A stretch of 33,752 nt of DNA from Candidatus Gastranaerophilales bacterium (GTDB lineage Bacteria > Cyanobacteriota > Vampirovibrionia > Gastranaerophilales > Gastranaerophilaceae): positions 1-33,752 of the forward strand of contig CALUYX010000009.1 of NCBI GenBank assembly GCA_944325115.1, written 5' to 3'. Shown here piece by piece: positions 1 to 15,990 of this stretch. Each line of letters starts with the position of its first letter. Positions within the stretch are counted from its first letter, which is position 1. The position numbers and the translations under genes were made by a program. Under the pieces are notes generated by a model that searched no databases, had not been told where the DNA came from, and worked only from the letters and a program-made list of their open reading frames with translations.

Positions 1-70
1 CGAACCGGCACGTGGGGTGAACCACACCAGATTTTGAGTCTGGCACGTCTACCAATTTCATCACACCGGC
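1..70 (-). tRNA. tRNA-Leu (anticodon CAA), 3' end outside window
   Basis: On the minus strand the gene starts at base 70 with acceptor strand GCCGGTG, followed by a class II-type D arm (ATGAAATTGGTAGACG), the anticodon stem-loop CCAGA-CTCAAAA-TCTGG giving anticodon CAA, a long variable arm (TGTGGTTCACCCCACG) and the start of the T arm (GGTTCG) at the window edge. The long variable arm and the anticodon fit tRNA-Leu reading UUG. The 3' acceptor strand lies outside the window, so the seven-pair acceptor stem cannot be checked. gatB lies upstream on the same strand, so the tRNA could be co-transcribed with it; I see no clear promoter in between. Confidence 0.9.
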
Positions 71-115
71 AGGTAAAGTTATTCAATTTTCAATCTGCTA
101 TGTGATGAAATTGGT
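51..115. repeat. 15-bp inverted repeat between tRNA-Leu 5' region and upstream repeat
   Basis: Bases 51-65 (ACCAATTTCATCACA) are the complement of tRNA-Leu nucleotides 6-20. Bases 101-115 (TGTGATGAAATTGGT) are their perfect reverse complement, and the same arm recurs at 193-207 in the second repeat copy. A transcript reading through the repeats into the tRNA would carry two sequences antisense to the acceptor/D-arm region of the tRNA. Confidence 0.85.
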
Positions 116-259
116 CTACATATTTTCTAAAACATGCTCCGCCTGTTTTGCATCACACCGGCAGGTAAAGTTATTCAATTTTCAATCTGCTATGTGATGA
201 AATTGGTCTACATATTTTCTAAAACATGCTCCGCCTGTTTTGCATCACACCGGCAGGTA
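61..259. repeat. 92-bp tandem repeat (two identical copies plus a 15-bp partial) with tRNA-Leu-derived ends
   Basis: Bases 61-152 and 153-244 are identical copies of a 92-bp unit, and 245-259 begins a third before diverging. On the minus strand each unit boundary carries TACCTGCCGGTGTGATG, which is the immediate upstream flank plus the first 12 nucleotides of tRNA-Leu. In the repeat units this is followed by CAAAACAGG instead of the tRNA body. The unit also holds a short hairpin (AAAACA / TGTTTT). No ORF or RNA family explains it. It fills most of the gap between tRNA-Leu and gatB. Confidence 0.93.
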
Positions 260-281
260 GAATTATCATACCAGAAAAAGA

Positions 282-1733
282 TTATTTTTCCAGTTCTTTT
301 TTTAGAATTTCATTTAACAGTTGCGGATTAGCTCTACCCTTGGTTTCTTTCATAACTTGACCCACAAAGAAACCAAAGAGTTTATCTCTACCGCCTTTGT
401 AAGCTGCAACTTGTTCAGGATTTGCTGCAACAACTTTTCTTGCAAGCTCTTCAAGAGCACCAGTGTCAGATAGCACGCTTAAGCCTTTTTTCTCAACCAG
501 CTCTTGAGCATCATCACCGCTTTTTAAAATGTCAACAACAAGTTGTTTTGCTATGTTGTTTGAAATTGTTCCCTTCTCAAGTAGTGAAAGTAGTTTTACA
601 AAGTTTTCAACCGTTAACTTTGAATCATTTATTGAGATTTTCTCTTCTTTTAGATAAGCTGCAACCTCGCCCATAAGGAAGTTTGAGGCAACTTTTGGAT
701 TTACGCCCGCTTCAAGAGTTTTATCATAAAAAAGTGCTATATCCATTTGATTTACAATGACATTTGCGTCATATTCGCTTAAGCCAAGACCCACATATCT
801 TTCTATTTTTTGAAGAGGCAGTTCTGGCATTGTGGATTTTATCTCATCAATCCACTCTCTGCTTATCTTAAGTGGCATTAAGTCGGGCTCAGGGAAGTAA
901 CGGTAATCATGGGCATCTTCTTTGCCGCGCATGGATGAAGTTGTGCCGCTGTTATCATCCCAGAGTCTTGTTTCTTGGACGACTTCGCCACCGTCTTCAA
1001 TAATTTCCGTTTGTCTTTCAAATTCGTATTCTATGGCACGAACAAGAGCTTTAAAGCTGTTTACGTTTTTAATTTCAGCTCTTGTACCAAACTCTTTTTG
1101 ACCTCTTGGTCGTACCGAAATATTGGCGTCAGCTCTCATTGAGCCTTCTTCCAAGTTTCCGTCGCATACGCCAATGTATCTTAATATGTTTCTTAGTTGC
1201 TCTACATATTCTCTTGCTTCTTCAGAAGAGCGCATGTCGGGTTCTGAAACAATTTCCAAAAGCGGTGTGCCTGCTCTGTTTAAATCAACAAGAGAGTATG
1301 ATGACCCGTATAGACCTGCTGCACCTGCGTGTACAAGTTTGCCTGCGTCTTCTTCAAGGTGTGCTCTTGTTATTCCTATTTTTTTATTTGAAATTTGTAC
1401 CCAGCCGCCAAGACAAATAGGCTCGTCAAATTGAGATATTTGATAGCCCTTTGGTAAATCAGGATAAAAATATTGTTTTCTGTCAAATTTGCATCTTTCG
1501 GGAATTTGAGAATTTAGTGCCAATCCTGTCAAAATACCCATTCTTACGGCTTCTTTGTTTAAAACTGGCAATACACCGGGCATACCAAGTGTAATAGCCG
1601 AAGTTTGTGTGTTTGGTTCTTTTCCAAAGCTTGCGCCGTCGGGTGCAAATATTTTAGTGTTTGTTTTCAATTGAGCATGGACTTCAAGCCCAATGACCAT
1701 TTCGTATTTTTCTTTCATATCGACAGGTGTCAT
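282..1733 (-). CDS. gatB: Aspartyl/glutamyl-tRNA amidotransferase subunit B
   Basis: This is the GatB subunit of the GatCAB amidotransferase, which phosphorylates and transamidates misacylated Glu-tRNA(Gln) and Asp-tRNA(Asn). The 483-residue length is normal. The N-terminus has VIGLEVHAQL, then the GatB signature region FDRKQYFYPDLPKGYQIS near residue 85. The C-terminus ends in the YqeY-like tRNA-binding domain with KETKGRANPQLLNEILKK. The start is supported by GAGGAG a few bases upstream of ATG. gatA and gatC are not adjacent in the window. Its presence suggests tRNA-dependent Gln and/or Asn charging. Confidence 0.97.
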   Translation of the reverse strand: MTPVDMKEKYEMVIGLEVHAQLKTNTKIFAPDGASFGKEPNTQTSAITLGMPGVLPVLNKEAVRMGILTGLALNSQIPERCKFDRKQYFYPDLPKGYQISQFDEPICLGGWVQISNKKIGITRAHLEEDAGKLVHAGAAGLYGSSYSLVDLNRAGTPLLEIVSEPDMRSSEEAREYVEQLRNILRYIGVCDGNLEEGSMRADANISVRPRGQKEFGTRAEIKNVNSFKALVRAIEYEFERQTEIIEDGGEVVQETRLWDDNSGTTSSMRGKEDAHDYRYFPEPDLMPLKISREWIDEIKSTMPELPLQKIERYVGLGLSEYDANVIVNQMDIALFYDKTLEAGVNPKVASNFLMGEVAAYLKEEKISINDSKLTVENFVKLLSLLEKGTISNNIAKQLVVDILKSGDDAQELVEKKGLSVLSDTGALEELARKVVAANPEQVAAYKGGRDKLFGFFVGQVMKETKGRANPQLLNEILKKELEK

Positions 1734-3243: not shown

Positions 3244-4311
3244 ATGATACAACCGCAGTATTCACAACCTCAGTATTCAATGCCAAGTGCAGTAAGCATT
3301 AATATATATGAACCAAAAAGTTATGGTACTGCTCCTGCTCAACAAAATCCGTATGCAACTTCTCCAATGCAGCAAGCTCCATATGGATTCACAAACCAAC
3401 TTTATGCAATGCCTGAAGCATCAGCTTGGGGTGCACAACCTTCTACGGTTCAATCTCCTTACCAACAGTATGCTACAAACCCTGTAATCCCCCAATATAC
3501 TCCCGCTGCTCCTGCGGCACAAGCTCCTGTAGCTCCTGTTGCACCTCAACCAATGCCCGAGAGCACAATTGAACCACAACAACCTGAAGCAACTCAAATG
3601 CCTGAAGTAAAAGATGCGCAAGATGCTCCCAAGGTTGATACAGATGCTTTAATTAAAGACCTTAAAAGCACGGATTACAATGCACAGGCTGAAGCAATAA
3701 CTTCAATTGCTAACTTTACGCAAGCAAGCCCTGATATAGCACTTCAAGTTGCTACTGACCCTGTTAAACAGTCTTTAATTGACATTATTAATGCTGATAC
3801 AAGTGCTCTTCCCGATACAACCGATGCACAAAAAGCACTTCAAGAAAAACAAAACAAAGGTGAAAAATTAACTCCTGAAGAACAAGCACAACTTGACCAA
3901 CTTTCACCCAAGGTAGCAGCTGACAAAAACAAAATCTTTGCATTGTTCACTTTAGCAATGGTACAAAAACTTGCAAGAGATAACGAAGCACAATATGCTC
4001 AATTCCAAACTGAACAAGGCAAACAAGCTCCTGCTCAACAAGGTTTAAAAGACCTTATGGGCTATAATGAAATAGTTAACACTATTCAAAATGAACCCAA
4101 CAAAGAACTTAAAATAGCTGCTATTCAAGCTCTTCAATATGTAGCAAAACCTGAAGAAAAGGCAGAAGTTGAACAAATTCTTCAAACTTCACTAAACAGC
4201 CAAGATGCTGATGTTAAACAAACTGCACAAGACGCTTTGGCTAAATTAGGCGAAGTACCTGCTGCAGATGCACAACAACAAAATACTCAAGAGGCTCAAA
4301 AAGCAGCTTAG
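3244..4311 (+). CDS. Second P/Q/Y-rich AVSINI-motif protein with HEAT-like helical repeats
   Basis: 355 residues, function unknown. AAAGGAGAT precedes the ATG. Residues 1-120 are low-complexity Pro/Gln/Ala/Tyr with SAVSINIYEP at 15-24, matching the AVSINI peptide of the protein encoded at 1877. From about residue 130 the chain is helical, with repeats such as LKSTDYNAQAEAITSIANF and NEPNKELKIAAIQALQYVA, plus SQDADVKQTAQDALAKLGE near the end, all HEAT-like. A Glu/Gln/Lys-rich insert lies between the repeats. No signal peptide or membrane segment is seen. The shared head motif and shared fold mark this and the 1877 product as paralogues. A clear terminator follows. Confidence 0.82.
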   Translation: MIQPQYSQPQYSMPSAVSINIYEPKSYGTAPAQQNPYATSPMQQAPYGFTNQLYAMPEASAWGAQPSTVQSPYQQYATNPVIPQYTPAAPAAQAPVAPVAPQPMPESTIEPQQPEATQMPEVKDAQDAPKVDTDALIKDLKSTDYNAQAEAITSIANFTQASPDIALQVATDPVKQSLIDIINADTSALPDTTDAQKALQEKQNKGEKLTPEEQAQLDQLSPKVAADKNKIFALFTLAMVQKLARDNEAQYAQFQTEQGKQAPAQQGLKDLMGYNEIVNTIQNEPNKELKIAAIQALQYVAKPEEKAEVEQILQTSLNSQDADVKQTAQDALAKLGEVPAADAQQQNTQEAQKAA

Positions 4312-15815: not shown

Positions 15816-15829
15816 AGTCTTATGCACTT

Positions 15830-15916
15830 GGAGAGGTGTCCGAGTGGTTTAAGGTGCAAACCTGGAACGTTTGTGTGGGGGCAACTCCACCGGGGGTTCG
15901 AATCCCCCCCTCTCCG
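15830..15916 (+). tRNA. tRNA-Ser (anticodon GGA)
   Basis: The acceptor strands GGAGAGG (15830-15836) and CCTCTCC (15909-15915) pair fully, with discriminator G at 15916. The anticodon stem-loop CAAAC-CTGGAAC-GTTTG gives GGA, reading UCC and UCU. There is a long class II variable arm (TGTGGGGGCAACTCCACC) and a T arm with GGTTCGAATCC. CCA is not encoded. Confidence 0.96.
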
Positions 15917-15990
15917 ATTTTTATTATCTTTTTGTCGAATGTTTTTTCCATAATTTTATTTAATACTTTCTTTATAGATAAGGAGAAAGT

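Follow-up and report, generated by a model that had tools for sequence, protein, structure and literature searches.

The window, that is, the whole stretch of 33,752 nt analysed here, starts inside a tRNA-Leu(CAA) gene carried on the minus strand (1-70). G1 of this tRNA, and thus the 5′ end of the gene, lies at position 70, and the 3′ end is unseen, since the gene is cut by the contig edge at position 1. The assignment comes from the sequence and from the Rfam tRNA model, which aligned to positions 70-3; ARAGORN misses the gene because it is truncated by the contig start. The upstream neighbour is gatB (282-1733, minus strand; Pfam GatB_N and GatB_Yqey), and between both genes lies an array whose features all read on the minus strand. 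As the first-pass annotation had described, the array comprises two identical units of 92 bp, each beginning with upstream flank and the first 12 nt of the tRNA. Unit 1 (59-150) adjoins the real tRNA and contains its nt 1-12 (59-70), and unit 2 (151-242) carries a decoy copy of the same 12 nt at 151-162. To these we add a partial third copy (243-266), formed by another decoy of nt 1-12 (243-254) and a diverged flank (89% over 240-266). It stands beside a -10-like TATGAT (265-270, minus strand), which puts the array downstream of a promoter-like site.

Each unit also contains, as previously noted, a 15-nt segment (101-115 in unit 1, 193-207 in unit 2) that is a perfect reverse complement of tRNA nt 6-20, located at 51-65. 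The inverted-copy pattern gave 3 matches against 0.16 expected. Next to this antisense segment lies a sequence common to units at other tRNAs, CAGATTGAAAATTGAATAA (79-97 and 171-189), which we call boxA-like because of a presumed resemblance to cyanobacterial rRNA spacers. On the other side is a small hairpin, AAAACAGGC-GGA-GCATGTTTT (129-149 and 221-241). Read along the minus strand, the order is therefore gatB, TATGAT, decoy, hairpin, antisense segment, boxA-like segment, second decoy, hairpin, antisense segment, boxA-like segment and the real tRNA-Leu(CAA). The minus strand of positions 1-281 has a predicted folding energy of -89.6 kcal/mol (z -5.2).

As the contig begins at position 1 of the window, the copy number of the array rests on the assembly of a metagenome-assembled genome (MAG). 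In G000, contigs C9, C15, C31, C40, C45 and C95 have an array inside or adjoining their first ~250 bases. Since many contigs of this genome begin at arrays, the repeats are a probable cause of assembly breaks, and the arrays are probably longer than they appear. Elsewhere in the window, the sole complete tRNA gene, tRNA-Ser(GGA) at 15829-15917, has no detectable 5′ or 3′ unit, and a 15-bp tandem repeat occupies an ORF start at 3249-3279.

Units at the ends of other stable-RNA genes

The search for further copies that the first-pass annotation had proposed found at least eight tRNA genes of the source genome with units matched to their own tRNA. Units precede the genes for Phe, Asn, Asp, Gly(TCC), two Met, Leu(GAG) and Leu(CAA), and follow those for Pro(GGG) and Glu(TTC), while many other tRNA genes have short leaders devoid of units. 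For example, contig C31, found with a 22-nt piece of the leader, carries a tRNA-Leu(GAG) gene whose own sequence is arranged in the same layout.

We also compared the gatB-tRNA-Leu junction between relatives, another of the suggested checks. One or two units were present in 12 of the 13 assessable genus members, the window included, but none in G003, so that copy number at this orthologous locus varies from 0 to 2 within the genus; two further assemblies break there. In the 11 species that could be aligned, the antisense segment (14-15 nt) was invariant amid drifting flanks, and the stem of the unit hairpin varied through mostly compensating substitutions, with A-U, G.U and G-C found at one and the same pair. 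The inserts found at this tRNA in other genera (36-105 nt) are unrelated, and their antisense segment tracks the host tRNA (GTGATG/CATCAC, GTGGCG/CGCCA). Given these orthologous units with their invariant antisense segment, the recurrence at many tRNAs in many genera and the mirror units at tRNA 3′ ends, the array is not the outcome of a single recent event, as had been envisaged from the perfect identity of the two copies.

To quantify the association, we counted direct copies of at least 9 nt of a tRNA's own 5′ end located 45-280 nt upstream. Such copies occurred at 102 of 228 distinct tRNA genes, a set enriched for positives, as unit patterns had been used to retrieve many of the loci, compared with 15 of 2071 (0.7%) in the swap control. 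Among 108 tRNAs fetched without unit-based choice, namely the tRNA sets of four genomes, one of them a partial sample, 22 attained an antisense score of 10, where swapping predicts 3.5. Copies mostly stop at tRNA nt 11-19, and the antisense segment bridges the junction, which falls after about nt 13. In 66 antisense segments, 1028 of 1122 positions (92%) were Watson-Crick to the own tRNA. These statistics use ARAGORN numbering, which for the window's tRNA-Leu starts one nt earlier than the numbering used above (nt 6-20 here are nt 7-21 there).

Mirror units exist at 3′ ends. A downstream copy of the own 3′ end was found at 25 of 137 tRNAs (control, 1 of 1162), often together with an antisense T-arm segment and in many cases beyond a terminator-like hairpin. 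Hence, a dedicated 5′-leader function cannot explain the family in general. Downstream of tRNA-Val(TAC), two species have orthologous 3′ units (L149 and L151), again past a terminator-like hairpin, whose stem has been wholly replaced and is still paired (GTCAC/GTGAC versus GCCG/CGGC). In one set of units, a hairpin of the form ACTCTGCCGA-stem-GAGAGG stands in the copy in place of its D-loop or T-loop region. Where it follows a tRNA-end copy, this hairpin shares the strand of the tRNA at all 29 of the 5′ ends and lies on the other strand at all 15 of the 3′ ends, so that it points inward from the adjoining tRNA end in all 44 cases. It is thus the gene end, not transcription, that sets the orientation, and this is our main argument for a process acting at the DNA level.

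Overall, units adjoin stable-RNA gene ends in Gastranaerophilales, mostly of tRNA and at least once of 5S rRNA: in L272 (308-767) a 5S rRNA gene is followed by copies of its own end bearing the hairpin. Inward from the gene end, a unit opens with a copy of approximately the first 11-18 nt and continues with one or two small hairpins, in most cases a junction-spanning gene segment in inverted copy, and a flank repeat that leaves the real gene intact.

The ACTCTGCCGA hairpin and its distribution

The ACTCTGCCGA-stem-GAGAGG pattern was detected in 95 of 117 genomes of the order, with up to 86 copies per genome and none for the reversed control; the genomes scanned outside the order had none. Between the conserved feet, ACTCTGCCGA and GAGAGG, the stems vary yet pair, 907 of 1088 positions being Watson-Crick. 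Not all copies adjoin a tRNA. Thirty-five had no tRNA within 420 nt of available sequence, and G103 holds more than ten near-identical copies inside longer dispersed repeats, with no tRNA found alongside. These repeats (L416-L429) are structured, and their arms, for instance GAATTTGC/GCAAATTC, covary from one subfamily to another. A longer element in which the ACTCTGCCGA hairpin comes after TGTCCGAGAAA-stem-TTTTGAGTGRCGTWTTAGACAGC is shared by L286, L287 and L288. The units of the window do not have the ACTCTGCCGA hairpin, and the source genome has no exact match to it and a one-mismatch form on contig C40. From their architecture, we infer that the window units are linked to the dispersed family through the tRNA-end copy, the small hairpin, the inverted copy and the boxA-like segment.

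A scan for inverted tRNA-Leu D arms in one genome per species (84,980 species) matched 51 stretches, nearly all labelled Gastranaerophilales, Melainabacteria or gut bacteria. Three from other groups (L093, L107 and L118) look like chance matches, being devoid of the boxA-like segment and of a true unit. The D-arm inverted-repeat pattern was present in 42 of 286 Gastranaerophilales genomes (reversed pattern, 0) and in none of ~210 Cyanobacteriota genomes outside the order. Among the genomes tested the architecture is therefore restricted to Gastranaerophilales, a boundary that is thinly sampled within the class, which has few genomes outside the order.

As for what might mobilise the family, no transposon-like ORF was recognised by eye near eight dispersed copies, whose arms differ by site. 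We discarded Y1/RAYT because the presence of Y1 transposases does not track copy number; PF01797 is absent from G062, G080, G116 and G107, which have 25-41 hairpin copies, and present in some other genomes. A phage origin was likewise set aside: viral contigs matching the hairpin pattern did not have a long stem, and the single viral D-arm inverted repeat found has no tRNA. Searches with Rfam covariance models gave credible matches only to tRNA and rRNA, with none to a T-box, riboswitch or ribozyme, and the repeat family was not described in the literature searched.

Possible origin and roles of the units

Alongside the observed anatomy, recurrence, end-inward orientation, tandem copy-number variation and within-genome spread of the shared hairpin, we favour, at a probability of roughly 0.55, that the array belongs to a lineage-specific, non-autonomous family of short non-coding DNA repeats that incorporates copies of its target. 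Units would arise and spread by a DNA-level process, possibly hairpin-dependent template switching or, alternatively, insertion ~13 nt inside the gene end by an enzyme acting in trans. Recombination between direct repeats would expand and contract the arrays, and quasi-palindrome repair may help to keep the inverted copy perfect. Units at 5′ ends would join the tRNA leader, where they would be tolerable provided that RNase P cuts at the real 5′ end. Several results sit uneasily with this repeat-family explanation: no mobilising enzyme was found, the window units are tied to the family by architecture and not by the ACTCTGCCGA hairpin, hairpin stems lean to the tRNA strand, and the invariance of the antisense segment in 11 genus members amid changing neighbours also fits selection on RNA.

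The latter would be expected if 5′ units were functional pre-tRNA leaders, in which the antisense segment pairs with either the decoy or the D arm and so switches tRNA folding or RNase P maturation, a reading that we consider possible but doubtful. Most 5′ units are predicted to pair with the tRNA, and folding of leader plus tRNA strongly predicts the pairing onto the acceptor/D arm that the first-pass annotation had proposed. The predicted gain over the separate parts, 11.6 kcal/mol for 96 unit-bearing genes versus 2.2 for 120 unit-less ones, arises because units carry an inverted copy, any of which is predicted to fold onto its tRNA, and cannot be taken as a sign of regulation. Pairing with the tRNA is minimal in several units that carry the ACTCTGCCGA hairpin (L220, L243). 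In favour of functional leaders, 12% of unit-bearing genes have a -10-like hexamer close to the tRNA, compared with 46% of unit-less ones; this displacement suggests that units are probably transcribed. Furthermore, G.U intermediates occur in the hairpin within the genus, and in 20 of 93 cases TTTAGA stands ahead of the antisense segment when read on the tRNA strand, and never in reverse. The strand-specific wobble evidence for RNA selection is suggestive only: G.U exceeded A.C deviations as a trend (35 versus 23 and 16 versus 8), without significant bias. Strand stability was confounded, as unit-less leaders show the same bias, and outer-stem pairing beat shuffles but hardly unit swaps, and equals extra complementarity to the tRNA itself. 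Against a leader function also stand the mirror units at 3′ ends, often past terminators, and the copies away from tRNAs.

Site-specific recombination, whereby minimal circles integrate at a core site ~13 nt inside tRNA ends and attL/attR-like copies restore the gene, would yield the layout flank-T(1-13)-E-flank-T(1-13)-rest, and roughly nt 1-11 and nt 18-28 are retained in some of the units with a hairpin. We nevertheless judge it improbable, as the ~90-135 bp units carry no gene and an inverted site copy is not part of a normal attachment-site product. Even less credible is an RNA-mediated mobile element using the antisense segment as a guide across the insertion point, as in reverse splicing. 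The segment would indeed splint decoy nt 13 to tRNA nt 14, but 3′ units are inverted relative to tRNA transcription, no Rfam model matched, and, to our knowledge, no self-splicing core fits into inserts of 36-105 nt. Finally, the contig ends within the tRNA and several contigs start in such arrays, as an assembly artefact or isolated tRNA debris might produce. We give next to no weight to either, given that the architecture recurs, each time with tRNA-specific sequence, in separately assembled genomes of many species. Thus, of the integration or template-switch debris initially suggested, both processes stay live for the origin of the units, whereas the units are not debris, as their recurrence at many tRNAs and in many genera shows.

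Going further, the units may tentatively be regarded as a new class of mobile or self-propagating DNA, although we hold this to be less likely than not. Each copy would be built partly from its target, a stable-RNA gene end in forward and reversed form, with orientation set by the gene end, and would rewrite the leaders of mostly single-copy tRNA genes. Spread by target copying would represent a mode of propagation aimed at essential tRNA genes, one that, as far as we know, has not been described for bacterial REP, REPIN or MITE families. If 5′ units are instead kept for function, this common gut lineage would control tRNA expression at a level not described so far. In either case, the units help to explain MAG breaks at tRNA genes and the variation in leader length between relatives.

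Comparison with known systems

Like T-box and other tRNA-sensing leaders, the units offer a structured leader with potential tRNA binding; unlike them, they lie upstream of the tRNA itself, match the D arm or the T arm, and have no Rfam match. Elements integrated at tRNA genes with attL/attR also duplicate part of the tRNA and leave the tRNA intact, but our units are gene-free, use both gene ends and contain an inverted copy. Direct repeats are present in our arrays, and units of ~90-135 bp could not hold an integrase. With MITEs they share being short, non-coding, dispersed repeats with self-complementary arms; they differ in having no fixed terminal inverted repeat, in flanking repeats that contain gene sequence, and in that no parent element was found. 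Template switching is able to generate inverted copies and to maintain them (PMC8794818). Such quasi-palindrome mutations make or repair inverted copies beside a gene and can keep stems perfect, and the units do have an inverted copy of adjacent sequence at short distance. However, template switching is a mutation process and not a repeat family, and alone it leaves the shared hairpin, the tandem units and the dispersed copies unexplained.

The nearest known miniature mobile DNA is the REPIN (PMC3116915). REP/REPIN sequences, which go with RAYT (Y1), have a conserved tag (GTAG, CGTC or similar) beside the stem, in place of which the dispersed hairpins have the feet ACTCTGCCGA and GAGAGG. Our units further depart from them in their variable, covarying stems, their association with tRNA ends, the sense and antisense target sequence in each copy, and the lack of correlation with RAYT. 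Both are nonetheless short, extragenic, hairpin-forming, dispersed and non-autonomous, with genome-specific variants (PMC3116915), and the copy number of the ACTCTGCCGA hairpin within single genomes is of the kind expected of REP/REPIN sequences.
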